64,000 bases of DNA from Oligoflexales bacterium (GTDB lineage Bacteria; Bdellovibrionota_B; Oligoflexia; Oligoflexales; RGVZ01): positions 248,001 through 312,000 of the forward strand of contig CANLUT010000001.1 in the NCBI GenBank assembly GCA_947494335.1, given 5' to 3'. The translations under genes and the position numbers were made by a program. Within the stretch, counting starts at the first letter, position 1. Every line of letters begins with the position of its first letter. Below the pieces are notes generated by a model that saw nothing but the letters and a program-made list of their open reading frames with translations, had not been told where the DNA came from and did no database searches. This document shows positions 6,173 to 57,877 of the stretch, piece after piece.

Positions 6173-6206
6173 AATCCTCAGCTTTCAAACTGAGGATTTT
6201 TTGTTT
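6173..6206. terminator. Rho-independent terminator
   Basis: ATCCTCAGctttcaaaCTGAGGATTTTTTG. Confidence 0.75.
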
Positions 6207-6234
6207 TCTGATGATGGGCGGAGACCAATATCAC

Positions 6235-6603
6235 TCAATCATCACTGATCCGTCGCATGTAGATTTCAAAGCGGCCGCGAATCTCATTCGGAGAAAAAAT
6301 GACCTTTTCTGGCATGTCTTCTGGCAGCGGAGGGCCTCCGGCAGAGATGTTTACTGAGGACGTGTCTTTGGCTAGGAGGTCTTGATCGGAGGGAGCAAAA
6401 CAAAGGCTTTCCATGGAGACACCAAGCTCTCGGGCGACGGCGTAGAGGTGCTCGATCTTTCTTGGCTGTACGCCTGACATCCAGTCACTTAAGACTTGTT
6501 TGGCCACACCAGTTTTACGCGACAGTTGCGCGGCGGTTAGACTGCGATCTTTGAGTAGTGTGGCTAAATTATGTCGAAGCCTGAAATTGACGTCTGTGGC
6601 CAT
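6235..6603 (-). CDS. XRE-family HTH regulator (tandem paralog A)
   Basis: FRLRHNLATLLKDRSLTAAQLSRKTGVAKQVLSDWMSGVQPRKIEHLYAVARELGVSMESLCF. Confidence 0.85.
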   Translation of the reverse strand: MATDVNFRLRHNLATLLKDRSLTAAQLSRKTGVAKQVLSDWMSGVQPRKIEHLYAVARELGVSMESLCFAPSDQDLLAKDTSSVNISAGGPPLPEDMPEKVIFSPNEIRGRFEIYMRRISDD

Positions 6604-6717
6604 TCGTAAATCTCCCCAAAACAAGAACAAACCACAAGATTCCGCTTTAAAGCGTGTTCTGATAAGTCGAGTCCGGCCAAACCTCGCAAAATCCGAAATT
6701 GCGGACAATCGCAAATC

Positions 6718-7059
6718 TCACTCATCACTGATTCGTCTGAGGTAGACTTCAAATCGTCCTCGAAGCTCGGGGATATCAATTCCCGACGCGCCGTTAGTGT
6801 TCGTGTGTGGTGGTGAAGATTTTTTACCTGCAAAGAGTTCACCGTCGCTTGTCGCAAAACAAAGAGTCTCCAGTGAGACCTCGAGTGTTTGCGCCACAAC
6901 ATAAAGTTGCTCAAGCTTGCGCGGTTGAACGCCTGCCATCCAGTCGCTTAGTACCTGCTTAGCCACGCCCGTTTTACGCGACAATTCAGCAGCAGTCATG
7001 CCGCGCTCGCGCAGAAGGGCTGCGAGGTTTTGTCTAAGGCGAAATTGCGATGTCTCCAT
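6718..7059 (-). CDS. XRE-family HTH regulator (tandem paralog B)
   Basis: FRLRQNLAALLRERGMTAAELSRKTGVAKQVLSDWMAGVQPRKLEQLYVVAQTLEVSLETLCF; C-terminal RGRFEVYLRRISDE matches paralog A. Confidence 0.85.
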   Translation of the reverse strand: METSQFRLRQNLAALLRERGMTAAELSRKTGVAKQVLSDWMAGVQPRKLEQLYVVAQTLEVSLETLCFATSDGELFAGKKSSPPHTNTNGASGIDIPELRGRFEVYLRRISDE

Positions 7060-7235
7060 AAGGCTTGTCCCCCAAGGGTTATACGTCTTTGTCTCGGGGT
7101 GCCTTATCGCAAATCGGCGTGACATCGGAGGTCACGGCAAACAGACTACTCGTCCGATAGTTCGGATTTCCCGTGGCATTTCGTTAAGTTTGCCCCGCTA
7201 AGGTCCGTATAGTGGAGGACTAGGGGAGGTCCTTA

Positions 7236-7580
7236 ATGGGTATCAAATGGCTTGTTTTATGCGTTTTGCTGCATGGCTGCAAAAAGCCACCTAAGGATGA
7301 TCGTCGCACGATGATCAGGGTCACAGGAGCTGCGGGCATTGAGTTTTCAGGCTCGATAGGCAGCGTTGGGACGTCATCATCGGTGAGTGGGGTGACCCCG
7401 CAAGATTTTGCGTTATCAAAAGAAGAGCCCATTGCAGGCGTTATTCAAAAGTCTACGTCCGGTGATCTGCGTGAGCTGGTCGTGGAGTGCTGGTTTGACA
7501 GTGAGGAGGCTTACGAGACTGCACGCACCACGACCGAGTATGGGATCGCGTCTGTCTCGTGCCGCCGCCCGACCCGCTAA
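7236..7580 (+). CDS. Hypothetical predicted lipoprotein
   Basis: Short signal-like N-terminus ending LLHGC. Confidence 0.5.
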   Translation: MGIKWLVLCVLLHGCKKPPKDDRRTMIRVTGAAGIEFSGSIGSVGTSSSVSGVTPQDFALSKEEPIAGVIQKSTSGDLRELVVECWFDSEEAYETARTTTEYGIASVSCRRPTR

Positions 7581-7740
7581 TTTAACGCCTTTTTGGGCTC
7601 CTGAGCCCTCAAATGAAGACGCGAATATCCTTGGTTTTTCGCCTAGGGGGCAAATCTTTCTAAAGCCTTCCTAAGCCTGGGCCGATCGCCTTTTTATGAG
7701 TGCCTATCGGCACTTGGCCTTGGGGTGCGGTGGAGTCTTC

Positions 7741-8781
7741 ATGTCTCGTGGTCGCAACAGTCAGTCGTCTCGTCAGATTGTCCTTCAGCAGATGCTGCAG
7801 GCCGCTGGTCGTCGTGGTCTGTCTCCGCGTGAGATCACAGAAAAGCTCAAAGACCGAGGTTATGAGGTTACGAAGCGAACGATTCACCGAGATCTCGAGG
7901 GACTTCAGGCCGCAGGTATTCCCGTATCCGAATCAGGATCCAAGTCCGATGACGGCGGTGTGCGGTGGACGATTGATGTGGGTCAGGGGACATCGGTGCG
8001 TTCTGGGCAGTCAGCCGTTCTCAAAATTTCACCGCGCCAGCTTGCTGGGCTTTATTTTGCCAAGGAGCAATTTAAGACGCTGGCGCGCAGTGAATTATTC
8101 ACAGGGCTAGATCATTTCTTTGAGCAGGTGAGTGATCTGATCGGTAGCCGTAACCGTGAACTCCTCGATGAATTTGCAAGAGACTTTTACGTCTCCCACG
8201 CCGACTCTGCCATTCTTGGCGCGACCTCAGACGTGGTCGAAACCATTCACGCAGCCATCATCGAAGGACACTGCATCAAGGCGCAGTACCAATCCGCAAA
8301 TTCCGGGACTGACCGCATCCGCGAGCTTGGGCCACATTATCTCTGCTACATGGACCGAGGCCTTTATCTGGTGGCTGAAGACCTGGAAGAGTCTAAAATT
8401 AAAAACTTCGCCGTCCCGCGCATCAAGTCCGCAGAGCTGATGGATAAGCCATATGAGGGACAAAAGACCTCGCCAGAGGCATTCTACAGTGAAAGCTTTG
8501 GTGCTTGGAGATCTGAGGGTGCAGTCCCTGTAGAGATCAAGGTCATCAAGTCTCGCGCCCCATTCGTCGCAGAGCGTCAGTGGCATCCCTCGCAGGAGAT
8601 CATCAAACATCGCGATGGCTCCATCACCCTAAAGCTTAAGGTCGGGCTTACTCCCACATTGGTGGGCTGGATTTTAAGCCTTGGTGACCACGCTGAAGTG
8701 ATCACCCCTCAACGCCTCAAAGACGACGTCTGCAAAGCAGCGCTTGCCGTCGCTGCACGCTACCGCAAGAAGGCGGGTTAA
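7741..8781 (+). CDS. HTH + WYL-domain transcriptional regulator
   Basis: GLSPREITEKLKDRGYEVTKRTIHRDLEGLQAAGIPV HTH; ELGPHYLCYMDRGLYLVAEDLEESKIKNFAVPRIKSAEL WYL-like core. Confidence 0.8.
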   Translation: MSRGRNSQSSRQIVLQQMLQAAGRRGLSPREITEKLKDRGYEVTKRTIHRDLEGLQAAGIPVSESGSKSDDGGVRWTIDVGQGTSVRSGQSAVLKISPRQLAGLYFAKEQFKTLARSELFTGLDHFFEQVSDLIGSRNRELLDEFARDFYVSHADSAILGATSDVVETIHAAIIEGHCIKAQYQSANSGTDRIRELGPHYLCYMDRGLYLVAEDLEESKIKNFAVPRIKSAELMDKPYEGQKTSPEAFYSESFGAWRSEGAVPVEIKVIKSRAPFVAERQWHPSQEIIKHRDGSITLKLKVGLTPTLVGWILSLGDHAEVITPQRLKDDVCKAALAVAARYRKKAG

Positions 8782-8815
8782 CTTGGTGCTGGATTCTGAT
8801 CTGGCTAAGATCCGG

Positions 8816-9037
8816 CTAAGATCCGGTCTTTTTCCATTTAAAACTGGGAGCTCTCTTGGTTTCCATACAGTCTTTTAGGTAGAGATTTATCAGTGTCTGA
8901 TAGGGAATACCCGTCTGATCAGCGAGCTTTTGAAAATAGGCTACGACATCTATATCTAGACGTATCGTTGTTCTTGATTTTAGCTGTTTGGAATAAGGGT
9001 TCTTTTTAGCTTTTGAAAAGTCGTATTGTTTTCTCAT
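8816..9037 (-). CDS. BrnA-like antitoxin (module 1)
   Basis: RTTIRLDIDVVAYFQKLADQTGIPYQTLINLYLKDC ribbon-helix-helix; overlaps the toxin by 4 bp. Confidence 0.8.
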   Translation of the reverse strand: MRKQYDFSKAKKNPYSKQLKSRTTIRLDIDVVAYFQKLADQTGIPYQTLINLYLKDCMETKRAPSFKWKKTGS

Positions 9038-9324
9038 GTGCTGTCACCTGTGTATTGTCTTGCCTCGAACTTCGTCGCTTTCCTTGCGGAGATGATGCGA
9101 ATGACTTCATCTTCTTGTCGATACGAGTGAACAACGACCAGTAATCGCATCCCGCTGCTCATTCCAAGTATAATGAACCGGTCTTCTTGGGCTGAATGAT
9201 CCGGATCTACGAGTAGCCGCGCACGGTCATCATAAAATACAGAACTGGCCTCGTGGAAAGACACACCATGCTTCGCCCGATTGCTTAGATCCTTTAGCTG
9301 ATCCCAGCGAAAGAAATCAGACAT
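9034..9324 (-). CDS. BrnT-like toxin (module 1)
   Basis: FRWDQLKDLSNRAKHGVSFHEASSVFYDD...EDRFIILGMSSGMRLLVVVHSYR...IRIISARKATKFEARQY. Confidence 0.88.
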   Translation of the reverse strand: MSDFFRWDQLKDLSNRAKHGVSFHEASSVFYDDRARLLVDPDHSAQEDRFIILGMSSGMRLLVVVHSYRQEDEVIRIISARKATKFEARQYTGDST

Positions 9325-9406
9325 ATTGTAACACCTCAAAATCAGACTGTACACACATTATATGTACATAAATAAATTATCTACCCATCGAATCTTCCTA
9401 GAGTTA

Positions 9407-10357
9407 CTAATGCCGAATCTCCACCAGCCCGGCGCGAATTCCAGCACGCTGATTGCAGGCGAAACAAAGTAGCCTCAAGTTCTCTGCGGTTGCCTGGCCT
9501 CCTCTGGCCACGGGAGTGATGTGATCATAGTTAATCTGTCGCCTCGTCCCGCAGCGAGTGCAGGCACCGCGGTCACGCTGCCACACAAAACTTTTAAGCT
9601 CCTGGGAGATATACCGAGGATTTCTGTGTGGTGGTGATGACTCCGGCGTCGGAGTAGGGGTTTCAGGGCAGACACTTTGACCGCCCCCAGCCATGGCTGC
9701 CTCTGATCGGCGTTTGCCAAACCGCTTAGCACGAAGGGCCTCGGCGCTCAGTTGTGCAAGCTTGGCGACAAGGTCTGCAAATCCTAAGGCTGCTCCCTCT
9801 GGTCCGAGTAGACTTCTGACCTCCTCAAGCTTTTGCCGAAGATCTTGATCCATCACAAATCTCACCTCAGACTTATCGTCAGCCAGTACCCGCTCGCGCT
9901 CTTTGGGTATGGCGACGTCTCCGCCCAGCTGAATGAGTTCACGCTGACCATCTCGTGCTGACTTGTTCTCAAGAAGACTGAGTACCTGCAGCTTTTGTTC
10001 TCTGGTGACCGTGGGTGCAGATCCCGCGCCAGCCAAGGTACTTTCGCGAAAGAAGCTCTGAGCCTGCGCGATATTGCTAAGACTCAATGCTCCCGATTCA
10101 ATCTTTTGCTCAATTTCAGGAATTTCTTTGATGAGGCGCATGGCCTGAATTCTTCGCCCAGCCTGCCCCTCGCTATACTGCAGATGCTTGACCGCATATT
10201 CAAACAAGCTAGCACACCCCAAGTCACTATAAAGCCTGCGCCGCTCAATCTCCCGCAGATGATGCAAAATCTTGGTGAGCGTAGTGCGCTCCATCTGAAC
10301 CAGATCCTTGGTCAAAGTAAGCAACTCATCATCGCGAAGATGTTTCAAATTCATCAT
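9407..10357 (-). CDS. HNH endonuclease family protein
   Basis: C-terminal HNH motif CTRCGTRRQINYDHITPVARGGQATAENLRLLCFACNQ; N-terminal DUF222-like helical region. Confidence 0.85.
   Translation of the reverse strand: MMNLKHLRDDELLTLTKDLVQMERTTLTKILHHLREIERRRLYSDLGCASLFEYAVKHLQYSEGQAGRRIQAMRLIKEIPEIEQKIESGALSLSNIAQAQSFFRESTLAGAGSAPTVTREQKLQVLSLLENKSARDGQRELIQLGGDVAIPKERERVLADDKSEVRFVMDQDLRQKLEEVRSLLGPEGAALGFADLVAKLAQLSAEALRAKRFGKRRSEAAMAGGGQSVCPETPTPTPESSPPHRNPRYISQELKSFVWQRDRGACTRCGTRRQINYDHITPVARGGQATAENLRLLCFACNQRAGIRAGLVEIRH
9640..9679 (-). repeat. Palindromic repeat family, copy 1 (inside the HNH CDS)
   Basis: ACTCCGGCGTCGGAGTaggggTTTCAGGGCAGACACTTT, reverse orientation of the shared unit. 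Confidence 0.75.
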
Positions 10358-10470
10358 GCAATCCTCCATTACAACTTCCTGGCAAAAGTATGGATGGATC
10401 AATGATGTCGCAAGCTACTTCTAACAATTACGATGAGTTGTCTGCGGTGGACGAATGGGCTTGGCAGAGA

Positions 10471-52454: not shown

Positions 52455-53333
52455 GTGGCAGACCCTGCTATATTTGTTGTTGCAACACCCATCGGTAATC
52501 TCGATGATCTAACTCCCCGCGGGTTGGCAACGCTGCGTCATGTGGACCTGATTGCCGCCGAAGACACAAGAAATACTCGTAAACTTCTGACCCACTTTAG
52601 CATCAATGGCAAAGAGTTGATCAGTTACCACGATCATATTGAGGCCTCTCGGAGCGAACAGCTTGTGAGTCGCATTAAAGCCCAGGGTCTTACGATGGCT
52701 CTGGTTTCTGATGCTGGTACCCCATGTGTAGCTGACCCTGGGTATCGTTTAATTCGTTTAGCTAAGCAAAATGGCATTAAGGTTCATCCTGTACCTGGCG
52801 CAAGTGCTCTAACCAGTCTGATTTCGGCAGCTGGGTTGCCCTCTGATCGTGTGATGTTTGTAGGATTTTTACCGACAAAGGATTCAGATCTCCGGCGAGA
52901 GATTCAAAGCTGGAAGGTTTCAAGGTCCTCGATAGTATTTTTTGAACCAACCAGAAGGCTTGAAGCATCGCTACGTGTCATCGCTGATATCTATCCTCAG
53001 GCGGAAGTCTCCATAGGTCGCGAACTGACCAAGCTTTATGAAGAAATTGAAACGATGCCCGTGTTGGCTGCCGTGGATTGGGTTCAGAATCATGCGATCT
53101 TGAAGGGCGAAGCCGTGGTCATGGTCTTCCTTGGCGAGCAAGCTGAGGATGTCTCAGGCGGAGATTCTGTGCTCGCGCACGTGAGCAATCACGCTCGGCG
53201 AGGATTTGCAGAGGGAAAAAGCTTAAAAGATTTGCTTAAAGAGTTTGGTGGGCTTGGCCTACAAAGAAGTGAACTTTATCAATTATTGCTCGAAATTAAG
53301 GAAACTGTCGACAACGAGGAGGAACGAACATGA
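52455..53333 (+). CDS. rsmI: 16S rRNA (cytidine-2'-O)-methyltransferase RsmI
   Basis: FVVATPIGNLDDLTPRGLATLRHVDLIAAEDTRNTRKLLTHF; VSDAGTPCVADPGYRLI; PVPGASALTSLISAAGLPSDR. Confidence 0.96.
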   Translation: MADPAIFVVATPIGNLDDLTPRGLATLRHVDLIAAEDTRNTRKLLTHFSINGKELISYHDHIEASRSEQLVSRIKAQGLTMALVSDAGTPCVADPGYRLIRLAKQNGIKVHPVPGASALTSLISAAGLPSDRVMFVGFLPTKDSDLRREIQSWKVSRSSIVFFEPTRRLEASLRVIADIYPQAEVSIGRELTKLYEEIETMPVLAAVDWVQNHAILKGEAVVMVFLGEQAEDVSGGDSVLAHVSNHARRGFAEGKSLKDLLKEFGGLGLQRSELYQLLLEIKETVDNEEERT

Positions 53334-53689
53334 AAGTGTGTCTATTGACGGTTGGGCTTATCGCAATGACAGGTGTGTGTCAGGCGGCAACATTTGAAAT
53401 GCAATCGCGAGATGGCTCGAATTTCACATTGGAAACTTCCGATGAAGTTGTCTCCATGAAGACCACTGAGTTTGATCTTTGTGGTGAAAACGTTGGTGCA
53501 GTCGCAAAAGTGAAGCTTTGGATGCCTGGTCACAATCACGGATCAACCCCGGTTCAGATGGGTGATGTTTCCGAGGGATGCAGACGCCTGACTCGAGTGA
53601 ATTTCTCGATGCCCGGTGATTGGGAAGTGCGGCTTGAGCTCAGTGGCGGAGATGCAGGGGCCTTTGAAGTTCCGGTTGAGCGTCAATAA
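53330..53689 (+). CDS. Secreted YtkA/FixH-like protein with MPGHNHG motif
   Basis: Signal peptide; KLWMPGHNHGSTPVQMGDVSEGCRRLTRVNFSMPGDWEVRLELSGGD; ATG overlaps the rsmI stop. Confidence 0.65.
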   Translation: MKVCLLTVGLIAMTGVCQAATFEMQSRDGSNFTLETSDEVVSMKTTEFDLCGENVGAVAKVKLWMPGHNHGSTPVQMGDVSEGCRRLTRVNFSMPGDWEVRLELSGGDAGAFEVPVERQ

Positions 53690-53718
53690 CTCAACTTCGT
53701 CTGAATGATAGGTGATTT

Positions 53719-54159
53719 ATGAAACTAATTGTCAGCGCTTTTTCGTTGCTGCTACTTCTGAGCTCTTGCGGGCAGGAAAAGTCGGAGCCACTCCCAGCAG
53801 CTCAGCAGGGTATGCAGTTAGCCACAAGTGCTTTATGGAAGGCCGAGCTAAACTGGAATCAGTCTCTGCGTTATAGCGACGAAGAGTTTTTGGAAATGCG
53901 GGGAACTATCGATTTCCGCGATGAAAACGGTGGATTTCCGAATCAGATTGAGGCCGTATCATTAGTTGCGGATATGCCACAGCATGGTCACGGAACGGGC
54001 AATATTCAGCCGCGCGTATTTCAATCAACGACTGACGCTGCGCGTTACCGATTTGAAAATCTCTATTTCACGATGACTGGGTCATGGCGTATTCGCGTCA
54101 TGGCAACAGTCAATGGTAAGGCCGATACGTGGGCGACCACGGTAGAGGTGGGAGATTAA
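53719..54159 (+). CDS. YtkA/FixH-like lipoprotein with MPQHGHG motif
   Basis: Lipobox LLSSC; LVADMPQHGHGTGNIQPRVF...YRFENLYFTMTGSWRIRVMATVNG. Confidence 0.65.
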   Translation: MKLIVSAFSLLLLLSSCGQEKSEPLPAAQQGMQLATSALWKAELNWNQSLRYSDEEFLEMRGTIDFRDENGGFPNQIEAVSLVADMPQHGHGTGNIQPRVFQSTTDAARYRFENLYFTMTGSWRIRVMATVNGKADTWATTVEVGD

Positions 54160-55046
54160 TGAAATTCCCATGTCACAAAATGTTACTGTTGTTAGCGCTT
54201 GCCTCTAGTGAACGCGTGCTAGCTTGTGCGTCTTGTGGGAGTGGCGGAGATGACCCGCTGATCCTTTATCCTTGGGAGCGGTGGAAGATTTATACGGGAT
54301 TTTCGCATACCAATGATTTTATCCCAATCGATATCAACGGAAGTCCAGGCGGCGAGTTTGGTCCTGAGACAAAAGATACGACCTTGGTCTCTGTGGGGCA
54401 CTCCTTTTCAAACAGATCGTTTGCAACCATCAGTGCACCCTACATCTTAAACAAACGAGGGTCATCTGAGGAGCGCGGTTGGGGTGATCCTATGCTGACA
54501 GTTCGCTACACAATTCTGCAGCAAGATATAACGGATGATTATATTCCTCAGGTGCAGGTCCTAGGTGCGGTTCGTTCTGGGCGCGCAACGAGTGTCTATG
54601 ACTACAAAAACCCTGCTCAGCTTGATGTGATGGGGTCCGGTGCAGCGGAGGGTCGCGCTGGTATTGATGTTTGGCACGGAATGTTCGACTGGAAGGCTGG
54701 CTTCGCGCAGACCGTGACGGCACCGCTCGAGAGTCGGAAAACTGATTTTGGCGACGTTAAAAATGGGACGTCCTTTCGCTCAACGATGACCATAGGCTAT
54801 GGTTGGGGAGATCGGGGCAAGATTTTAACGGGAGTGAACCGGGAGCAAACGACAAAAAAGCTGATCGACTCTCGATTCCAGGCAAACAGCGAAAAACTAA
54901 ACCATAGCGTATTTGTGACGGCTGATGCCAAGGTCGACCGTCAATCGCTACTAAGGTTGACAGTGGCACGTGCAGCGGCGTTTGGGCTGAACCAGAATAC
55001 GAGCCAGAATCAATCCGTTACTTTCGCAGTGATGAGATCATTTTAA
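54159..55046 (+). CDS. Outer-membrane beta-barrel-like protein with N-terminal CASCGSGGDDPL
   Basis: Start overlaps previous stop (TAATG); secreted CASC motif; alternating beta-strand pattern and C-terminal SF. Confidence 0.6.
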   Translation: MKFPCHKMLLLLALASSERVLACASCGSGGDDPLILYPWERWKIYTGFSHTNDFIPIDINGSPGGEFGPETKDTTLVSVGHSFSNRSFATISAPYILNKRGSSEERGWGDPMLTVRYTILQQDITDDYIPQVQVLGAVRSGRATSVYDYKNPAQLDVMGSGAAEGRAGIDVWHGMFDWKAGFAQTVTAPLESRKTDFGDVKNGTSFRSTMTIGYGWGDRGKILTGVNREQTTKKLIDSRFQANSEKLNHSVFVTADAKVDRQSLLRLTVARAAAFGLNQNTSQNQSVTFAVMRSF

Positions 55047-55406
55047 ATGACTAAGTTGATTTTAGTTTTCCTAGTAACGATTGTCGGCGCGACAGAAACT
55101 TTGGCCGTTGATGCGGCGGATTTTTATCACTGTCGCGAGATGAGCTATAAAGATTTTGCGAAGCAATCATCGCAATGGCGAGGTAAACAGGTCGTCGCCT
55201 TTGCTAGCTGGTGTTCATCGTGTAAATCCAATGTTTTGGATGCCAAAAAGAAACCAAATGAATTCATTCTTGTTGCAGCCTTTGATGATAGGGAGGCTGC
55301 AGAAAACGTTTTAAAAAAGTGGTCGATTCAGGCACCATGTTTCCTGGGCGAAGATCTGGTTGATGGTCTTGGCATTTCATCGCTACCTTGGTCCAAAAAA
55401 TTATAA
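55047..55406 (+). CDS. Thioredoxin-fold secreted protein
   Basis: VVAFASWCSSCKSNVLDAKK CxxC motif; ATG immediately follows previous stop. Confidence 0.75.
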   Translation: MTKLILVFLVTIVGATETLAVDAADFYHCREMSYKDFAKQSSQWRGKQVVAFASWCSSCKSNVLDAKKKPNEFILVAAFDDREAAENVLKKWSIQAPCFLGEDLVDGLGISSLPWSKKL

Positions 55407-55431
55407 AGCCAATTGAGACAGGGAATGTCCC

Positions 55432-56640
55432 ATGACCGAAACGCTCCATCACAAAATAGTCATTGTTGGGGGCGGTACGGGTGGCATTTGTGTGGCTGCA
55501 AGGCTAGCGAGGTCCGGACTGGGCAAAGACATCGCGATTATTGAACCTAGTGATAGCCATTACTACCAGCCGCTCTGGACGCTTGTTGCGGCTGGGGTTT
55601 TTGACATGAAGGCAAGCACCCGTCGAACCAAGGACTTCATTCCAAGGGGTGTTCACTGGTATCAGGATGCTGCGATTGCAATTTCTGCAGCCAACAAATC
55701 AGTAAGAACTCGGAATGGATCAACGATTACGTTTGACTGGCTGGTCTTGGCTCCCGGAGTCGAACTAGATTGGGATTCTATCAAGGGCGCTCGTGAGGCT
55801 CTGGCGACACCCAATGTCAGTTGTATTTATGACCGCGGTTATGTCGCAAAAACAGAGGGTATTCTGAAGCGTGTCAGTTCTGGAAAGCTTCTTTTCACGT
55901 TTCCACCGCCACCCGTCAAGTGTGCAGGAGCCCCTCAGAAGATTATGTATCTTGCTGATGAAATGCTGCGAAGGCGCGGAGTGCGAGAGCAATTTACTAT
56001 TGAGTACCGTTCAGCTTTAGCCGGGATCTTTGGCATCCCGGTGTTTGCCGATTTGTTGAATCGAATTGTCTCCCGTAAAAACATTAAGACATTTTTCAAT
56101 CAAAAATTGATTGAAGTTCGTGCTCGTGAAAGACAGGCCGTCTTTGTGGATGTTGCTGATAGTCAAAAGATGGAAATAATTAGTTACGAATACTTACATA
56201 TTGTCCCGTCCATGCGCCCCCCTGAGGTGATTCGTTCCAGTGATGTCAGTGTGGCTGAGGGAGCCGGCCGAGGTTGGATCGATGTAGATCCTTACTCTTT
56301 GCGGCATCAACGGTGGCCAAATGTTTTTGCATTGGGAGACGCCTGTAATGCCCCTAACGCCAAAACGGGTGCTGCAATCAGGAAGCAAGCACCGGTGTTA
56401 GTGGACCATCTGCTAAGAGCGATGTCAGGACAAGTCAGTGATAGGAAATATGATGGCTATGCATCATGTCCATTGGTCACAGGCTTTGGAAAAGTGGTTC
56501 TTGCGGAGTTTGGTTACGACGGTAAATTAATGCCGTCTTTTCCTTTGAATCCTGCCCGGGAAAGTCGGTTAATGTGGTGGCTTAAGACTCTGGTGTTGCC
56601 GCGTTTATATTGGTATTTAATGTTACGCGGACGTGCGTAA
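55432..56640 (+). CDS. Sulfide:quinone oxidoreductase-like FAD-dependent oxidoreductase
   Basis: IVIVGGGTGGICVAARLARSG; SHYYQPLWTLVAAGVFD; PPPPVKCAGAPQKIMYLADE; FALGDACNAPNAKTGAAIRKQAP. Confidence 0.85.
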   Translation: MTETLHHKIVIVGGGTGGICVAARLARSGLGKDIAIIEPSDSHYYQPLWTLVAAGVFDMKASTRRTKDFIPRGVHWYQDAAIAISAANKSVRTRNGSTITFDWLVLAPGVELDWDSIKGAREALATPNVSCIYDRGYVAKTEGILKRVSSGKLLFTFPPPPVKCAGAPQKIMYLADEMLRRRGVREQFTIEYRSALAGIFGIPVFADLLNRIVSRKNIKTFFNQKLIEVRARERQAVFVDVADSQKMEIISYEYLHIVPSMRPPEVIRSSDVSVAEGAGRGWIDVDPYSLRHQRWPNVFALGDACNAPNAKTGAAIRKQAPVLVDHLLRAMSGQVSDRKYDGYASCPLVTGFGKVVLAEFGYDGKLMPSFPLNPARESRLMWWLKTLVLPRLYWYLMLRGRA

Positions 56641-56657
56641 CGGAAAGGAATCGGTCT

Positions 56658-57212
56658 ATGAAAATCTTGAGGTTGAAATCTGTTTTGTTGGTTGTTTCAT
56701 TCTTATTGGGAGCCACAACCAGTGTGTTCGCTGCCGACTTGCTGGGAAATCCTGCGCCATTATTTGGCGCCAAGAACCAAGATGGTAAGGAGTTTAAACT
56801 CGAGTCCCGCAAGGGGCAGGGCTATACAGTTTTGTTCTTTTATCCGAAAGCTGGAACACCTGGTTGCACGAAGCAAGCTTGTGCGTTTCGGGACGCAATT
56901 AAGGTGATTCGTAAACAGGGCGCTGAGGTATATGGAATCAGCTCGGATGATGTTGGGCAGCAGAAGAAATTTCACGACGAACATAAAATGACGTTTGATC
57001 TAATTAGCGATGCTGACGGCAAAATCATTGAACTTTATAAGGTAAAGATGCCTGTCATTAATATGGCAAAGCGTCAAACATTTATTCTTGATGAGAATCT
57101 TACGATTAGAAAGCATTTCGAGGATGTCGACCCTTCTTTGGATGCGAAGAATGTCGCCGCAGCCATTGCCGACCTCAAAGAAGGCGGTAAAAATACTCCG
57201 TTAAAAAAATAA
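56658..57212 (+). CDS. Peroxiredoxin (BCP/AhpC-TSA type), secreted
   Basis: Signal peptide; FFYPKAGTPGCTKQACAFRD. Confidence 0.9.
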   Translation: MKILRLKSVLLVVSFLLGATTSVFAADLLGNPAPLFGAKNQDGKEFKLESRKGQGYTVLFFYPKAGTPGCTKQACAFRDAIKVIRKQGAEVYGISSDDVGQQKKFHDEHKMTFDLISDADGKIIELYKVKMPVINMAKRQTFILDENLTIRKHFEDVDPSLDAKNVAAAIADLKEGGKNTPLKK

Positions 57213-57274: not shown

Positions 57275-57877
57275 ATGGAACGGATAGCCATTTATTACCG
57301 CGTCTCAACGGATAAACAAGATCTCGACAGCCAGAAGGTCGCTATTGACCGGTGGCTTGCTGACCTCCCGAAGAAGCCTAAAAGCGTTCACGTGATTCAG
57401 GATGAAGGTGTTTCTGGTAAACACGAGAATAGGCCCGGTTACCGTGAGCTTTTGGGGCTGGCAGTTCAGCGTAAAATTGACACGATCGTTGTTTACCGAC
57501 TCGATCGTCTAAGTCGTAATGCAACAGTAGCTATTAAAACTCTGCTGGAGCTGGATGAGTATGGTGTCGGATTTATTTCAGTCACCCAGCCGGTGTTGAA
57601 CCTTGGCCACGCAAATCCATTTCGTAGAACGATGTTAGCTGCATTCGCTGAGATTGCCGAAATCGAACGTGAAACGATTGTAGCGCGGGTGCGAAGTGGA
57701 TTAGAAGCGGCCAAACGACGCGGGGTTGTTCTGGGAGCGCCTGTTAAGGTCACGGACGATGTTGTATCAAAAGCTCGTGAGCTGCGAGCTGAGGGGCGCA
57801 GTTATAAGGAAATTGCTGAGGCACTGGATGTTTCGGTGGGGTCAATTCATAAAGCCCTGAAGTCTGAAGTGGTGTAG
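57275..57877 (+). CDS. Serine site-specific recombinase (resolvase/invertase type)
   Basis: IAIYYRVSTDKQDLDSQ; VYRLDRLSRN; AAFAEIERE-type region; C-terminal HTH SYKEIAEALDVSVGSIHKAL. Confidence 0.95.
   Translation: MERIAIYYRVSTDKQDLDSQKVAIDRWLADLPKKPKSVHVIQDEGVSGKHENRPGYRELLGLAVQRKIDTIVVYRLDRLSRNATVAIKTLLELDEYGVGFISVTQPVLNLGHANPFRRTMLAAFAEIAEIERETIVARVRSGLEAAKRRGVVLGAPVKVTDDVVSKARELRAEGRSYKEIAEALDVSVGSIHKALKSEVV

Follow-up and report, generated by a model that had tools for sequence, protein, structure and literature searches.

The window analysed here is a 64,000-nt stretch of DNA (G000:C1:248001-312000) from a 3.3 Mb genome in 8 contigs, whose closest relatives among public sequences are metagenome assemblies of Oligoflexales type (under the labels Pseudobacteriovorax antillogorgiicola or Oligoflexales bacterium). 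A first-pass annotation had described seven same-strand genes, several of them translationally coupled, between positions 52455 and 57212, and all seven open reading frames (ORFs) were found on the + strand. Four of them make up the core considered below: ytkA1 (53330..53689), encoding an exported YtkA-like protein and putative copper chaperone; ytkA2 (53719..54159), encoding a predicted YtkA-like lipoprotein; a gene for an outer-membrane beta-barrel, a putative channel with a cysteine-tipped mature N-terminus (54159..55046); and a gene for a short exported thioredoxin-fold protein (Trx; 55047..55406). The core is preceded by the housekeeping gene rsmI (52455..53333), which encodes 16S rRNA (cytidine1402-2′-O)-methyltransferase (TIGR00096, 220 bits against a cut-off of 168), and followed by genes for a SQOR-like sulfide:quinone oxidoreductase (SQR; 55432..56640) and an exported PrxQ/BCP-like peroxiredoxin (Prx; 56658..57212). 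The junctions were as annotated, the ATG of ytkA1 overlapping the rsmI stop codon at 53330, that of the barrel gene overlapping the ytkA2 stop codon at 54159, and the barrel and Trx genes meeting with 0 bp between them at 55047. Trx and SQR are separated by 25 bp and SQR and Prx by 17 bp, taking as the best Prx start the ATG at 56658, which has an upstream AGGA (the TTG at 56610 merely gives the longest ORF). Terminator-like sites numbered 13 against a shuffle mean of 6.1 and lay mostly within genes, none on the + strand falling in the gaps between the core genes, SQR and Prx, while promoter-like sites were at chance level (8 against 6.1 expected).

Conservation was assessed in 40 barrel loci read with their flanks in the phylum of the window, the window itself excluded, a gene within 1.5 kb being counted as a neighbour. 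Barrel homologues are present in 39 of the 58 genomes of this phylum. A YtkA-like gene lies near the barrel in 34 of the 40 loci, a thioredoxin gene in 27 and two YtkA genes in 12, and since dozens of genomes share the core gene order, at identities as low as about 25-35%, it is not due to chance. The flanking genes behave otherwise: rsmI is near the core in five loci, all congeneric (L034-L037, L039), SQR in two of the comparison loci, and Prx only in the window's own genome (G000) and in G035 and G036. Full-length SQR was found in 3/6 congeneric genomes, always adjoining the core; among the loci read outside the genus, none has SQR beside the core. The conserved unit is thus one or two YtkA genes, the barrel and Trx, with rsmI, SQR and Prx as genus-level neighbours. 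Of the block first annotated, this YtkA-barrel-Trx part proved widely conserved, whereas the full set of seven genes is confined to the genus. A contig search returned 21 loci, all within the same broad group, and a search for plasmid-borne copies found none.

The core extends into a sister phylum, sampled as 369 genomes reached through locus L095, of which 98 hold a barrel homologue, mostly a distant one. YtkA adjoins the barrel in all 39 of the loci read there (39/39), and 31 of these loci also have close by, usually just upstream, a gene for an exported redoxin that bears a CPC motif, so that redoxin-YtkA-barrel is the distant form of the core. Three closer loci (L084, L089 and L095) combine an extracytoplasmic function (ECF) sigma factor, a small membrane protein and YtkA1-YtkA2-barrel, with Trx where the contig extends. 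The small membrane protein, encoded just upstream of ytkA1 and after the ECF sigma gene, carries FCPQ and further cysteines, and is possibly an anti-sigma factor and metal or redox sensor. Divergently adjoining the redoxin-YtkA-barrel operon in several genomes of the sister phylum is a gene for a 697-aa protein of the PF10136 'site-specific recombinase' family (L163, L161, L166, L171), the family having been shown for L163 and the other three being matched by length and position only.

Variant cores were seen within the phylum of the window. In the congeners G036 and G038, Trx and SQR have disappeared from the rsmI-linked core (L037, L039), whose YtkA2 is also without the His motif (MPETGRGTG, VPELGQGTG). 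Both genomes also hold a second core, of the CPCGCG type, with intact motifs in a divergent arrangement (L053 and L060 in the same observation), and the two cores look like paralogue specialisation. A second barrel gene, at L065 (G022:C42), is interrupted: its two pieces are separated by about 2.5 kb that holds two ORFs, perhaps a mobile element, while L052 has an intact copy.

Both YtkA proteins were assigned by the PF13115 (YtkA/CtaK) profile together with alignment, YtkA1 passing the gathering cut-off (26.5 versus 25.9 bits) and YtkA2 falling just below it (23.8 bits). The annotated His/Met motifs were confirmed from the sequence as MPGHNHG in YtkA1 (53522..53542) and MPQHGHG in YtkA2 (53974..53994), with two corrections: the strictly conserved His of each motif is the second, the first often being Met, and YtkA2 is a predicted lipoprotein, having a lipobox (LSSC) with an invariant Cys17. 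The invariant residues of YtkA1 are C51, M65, H70, C84, M94 and W98, C51 and C84 forming a cysteine pair; those of the orthologous YtkA2 proteins are the lipid-anchor C17 and M86, H91, M119 and W123. The putative Met/His copper ligands (M65/H70/M94 and M86/H91/M119) are therefore invariant in each protein. The YtkA2 model is a beta-sandwich (predicted local distance difference test, pLDDT, 87) and its best PDB match is silver-bound Helicobacter pylori CrdA (9ll4, E 2.7e-4, 12% identity); a profile search of the PDB with YtkA2 gave no match. The YtkA1 profile matches CrdA at E 0.29, non-significant alone, in an alignment that sets MPGHNHG (MP..H) opposite MPEMPGM (MPEM) and M94 opposite the Met of NLSMNGTW. 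CrdA is a Cu(I)-binding protein, and a Met-rich region has been proposed as its site (PMC9182242). CtaK (YtkA) is needed along with Sco for CuA assembly, and copper rescues its mutants, which resemble those of Sco (PMC9145763, PMC13344008).

The barrel was recognised from its AlphaFold2 (AF2) model (pLDDT 81, predicted template-modelling score 0.79), from Foldseek and from its homologues. The model matches FapF (5o68, E 3e-13) and the COG4313 channel (4rl8, E 2e-12). The window barrel itself has no Pfam, NCBIfam or PDB-sequence match, and assignment to a known family of these kinds was ruled out; PF13557 was reached by one of 24 barrel family members, at E 0.002. The CASC of the first-pass annotation (C23-C26, 54225..54236) stands just past the predicted signal peptide. 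C23 and C26 are invariant in the alignment, and cysteine at this position is kept nearly throughout the family, as CASC, CPCGCG, CCGGG or CHGGG. In Trx the annotated CxxC is CSSC (55212-55223), and the alignment shows W55, C56 and C59 (WCxxC), the cis-Pro P114, and further C29 and C98 to be invariant. The family match is weak from the single sequence, while the profile finds ResA and PDI at E of about 1e-6 to 1e-8. The window Trx ends five residues past the cis-Pro, and is therefore shorter than a classical thioredoxin.

Genes adjoining the core in relatives are of several kinds. MbnP, scoring over its cut-off, was found in 11 genomes, and in five of them it adjoins the core together with MbnH. 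An ActS/PrrB/RegB and ActR/PrrA/RegA two-component pair, named from best NCBIfam models that score below their equivalog cut-offs, likewise adjoins it alongside MbnP/MbnH. Other relatives have MNIO, DUF2063 and cytochrome c genes, or a CopA-type ATPase, beside the core, and at L190 SCO1, PCuAC and YtkA are found there. These associations, made in different families, share one theme, copper and respiration, and no single one proves it. Neither MNIO with DUF2063 nor MbnP with MbnH is in the window block, and no MbnP was found in the window's genome. That genome has a third YtkA-like gene (L074, G000:C1:210000-229000, at about 6173-9737) beside CoxB, which has a cytochrome c domain, and a MauG/MbnH-like diheme gene; the congener G036 has another YtkA-like gene with the same kinds of neighbour, CoxB and MauG/MbnH-like.

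The SQR matches human SQOR over its full length (phmmer E 1.8e-107, residues 6-400), and the catalytic cysteines, whose absence the first-pass annotation had named as damaging to its proposal, are both kept and conserved in relatives (C164, 55921-55923; C346, 56467-56469). Identity is 48% for the orthologues in G014 and G017 and 30% for one in G013 that is more distant. All three genes lie away from the core, by a sigma-54 regulator and, in varying combination, persulfide dioxygenase, rhodanese and TauE. In the window's genome the persulfide dioxygenase, TauE/SafE and rhodanese genes sit together on another contig (L202, G000:C5:122000-138000, at about 7456-10398), with two further membrane proteins that we take by eye to be YeeE/PmpAB-like. 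Since the catalytic cysteines are kept and the relatives' SQR stands beside persulfide dioxygenase, SQR is probably a genuine sulfide oxidase with a job of its own, and its position after the core may be functional or fortuitous. The Prx has an AhpC-TSA domain (PF00578, E 6.9e-35) with C70 in TPGC and C75, and scores below the PrxQ equivalog cut-off. A serine resolvase gene (57275-57877, + strand) lies directly 3′ of Prx, and also adjoins Prx in G035; it may relate to the arrival of SQR and Prx at the locus. Because neither SQR nor Prx travels with the core, the sulfide oxidation and oxidant detoxification that had been proposed as chemistry of the whole block are best seen as lineage-specific additions.

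The proposal that the locus encodes an envelope module for a metal, most likely copper, stands up better, given the CtaK family membership of YtkA, its CrdA-like fold and the copper neighbours in relatives; copper is well supported as the probable metal, judging from sequence. We read YtkA1, the lipoprotein YtkA2, the cysteine-tipped barrel and Trx as a copper-handling envelope module that would feed mainly a heme-copper oxidase, to which SQR and Prx were added within the genus, and give this reading about an even chance of being right. From the gene order and its conservation, the invariant residues, the predicted folds and the copper neighbours of relatives, we infer the metal, its direction, the partner proteins and each transfer step as follows. 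The barrel would act as a channel, and the CxxC at its N-terminus, on the periplasmic side, would take up Cu(I) at the outer membrane. The Met and His residues of the YtkA proteins (M...H...M) would then ligate the copper, which these proteins would hand on, its main destination being the CuA/CuB sites of the oxidase. Trx would maintain the copper-binding cysteines in reduced form, a part like that of TlpA, which reduces Sco and CoxB prior to metallation (PMC9145763, PMC7558416), and in the sister phylum the CPC redoxin would replace Trx as reductant. Within the genus, Prx would remove peroxide, a species able to react with Cu(I), and SQR would remove sulfide, which is a ligand of copper and an inhibitor of heme-copper oxidase.

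Several points weigh against this reading. Its copper basis consists of family membership, a fold similarity to CrdA at E 2.7e-4 and 12% identity, and the neighbours of relatives, and in the window itself the core has no classical copper gene as a neighbour. By sequence the barrel is without a characterised relative, and we know of no Cys motif and no copper or other metal link in FapF or the COG4313 channel. Since COX2 is near-universal in the phylum (54/58 genomes), co-occurrence with a CuA oxidase cannot test delivery and was dropped for that use. Barrel homologues are undetectable in 19 of the 58 genomes, most of which have COX2, and the module is therefore non-essential for CuA assembly. 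Several of the neighbours, of the MNIO/bufferin type and CopA, point to copper stress.

The main rival starts from these last neighbours. In copper (or silver) resistance, the same proteins would gather excess periplasmic Cu(I) and export it via the barrel, as is thought for CrdA/PcoB-type proteins. This draws on the same evidence as delivery to an oxidase, in that YtkA2 resembles a copper-resistance determinant and some relatives carry bufferin-type MNIO and DUF2063 genes and a CopA-type ATPase beside the core. However, neither an RND (resistance-nodulation-division) pump nor a multicopper oxidase was noted among the genes next to the core, and the RegB/RegA redox regulators, SCO1/PCuAC and CoxB among the neighbours point to respiration; we regard efflux as possible but rather unlikely.

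A further rival is the integrated envelope pathway for sulfide and reactive sulfur of the first-pass annotation, taken here with Trx, SQR and Prx carrying the main chemistry and YtkA and the barrel as accessories. An SQR with intact catalytic cysteines 25 bp from Trx, and sulfane-sulfur genes elsewhere in the same genome, are what such a pathway would have, but the core persists widely without SQR, only 2/40 other loci place the two together, and the SQR relatives in G014, G017 and G013 are located elsewhere with their sigma-54 regulator and sulfur genes. A single pathway of this kind was ruled out as the leading interpretation, SQR and Prx not accompanying the core, and we consider it improbable. 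Envelope thiol-redox maintenance of the ResA/CcmG type, in which the CxxC barrel would be a redox substrate and no particular metal would be involved, would account for the ResA and PDI matches of the Trx profile and for the co-occurrence of barrel cysteines with Trx or redoxin. Against it, the most constant partner of the barrel is the Met/His-bearing YtkA (34/40 and 39/39 loci), and the neighbours are copper genes, not cytochrome c maturation genes, making this the least probable of the readings considered.

Copper passage over the outer membrane is poorly known in most Gram-negative bacteria. Porins, TonB-dependent receptors and chalkophores are named in a 2020 review (PMC7558416), and it was only in 2025 that a receptor for the aa3 oxidase was identified (PMC12617631). 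In the open-access literature, a scope that is not proof of absence, no paper was found on this barrel or gene order, which thus appears to be undescribed, as first annotated, nor on copper trafficking in this predatory-type, little-studied bacterial group. The novelty is the joining of known chaperone and thioredoxin families to an uncharacterised barrel, and a conserved, cysteine-tipped barrel whose neighbour is nearly always a CtaK-type chaperone makes a concrete candidate for a missing component. A bolder proposal, which we hold only tentatively and think somewhat unlikely, is that the barrels form a new family of TonB-independent outer-membrane copper channels, marked by an N-terminal Cys cluster (CASC/CPCGCG/CCGGG), that hand Cu(I) to YtkA with a dedicated thioredoxin or redoxin as reductant and are widespread in Bdellovibrionota and Oligoflexia-type bacteria. 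Were the direction efflux, the barrel would nonetheless count as a new partner of YtkA-type chaperones at the outer membrane.

Among known systems, the barrel shares its beta-barrel fold with FapF and the COG4313 channel (TM-score ~0.7), but only 11-15% identity. The SQR is like human-type SQOR in its full-length alignment and both catalytic cysteines, and differs in setting, adjoining a copper-type module where relatives' SQR goes with persulfide dioxygenase. The MbnP/MbnH pair and MNIO/bufferin clusters, which adjoin the core in several relatives, are separate systems and do not adjoin it in the window. CrdA resembles the YtkA proteins in the fold of YtkA2 and in the weak YtkA1 profile match that aligns the Met motif and M-G-W region; unlike them it carries Met only, with no His or Cys (PMC9182242), and it partners CrdB-CzcBA efflux rather than a barrel of the present type. 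With Bacillus subtilis CtaK and the YtkA domain of YcnJ there is a shared Pfam family, conserved His and Met and, for YtkA2, lipoprotein character, whereas here the YtkA-like proteins often come as a pair and are coupled to a thioredoxin and an outer-membrane barrel, in an operon without Sco. The TlpA-Sco-PCuAC pathway likewise pairs a thioredoxin-fold reductant with Met/His copper chaperones in the periplasm, from which the present module differs in using another chaperone family and in adding an outer-membrane component.

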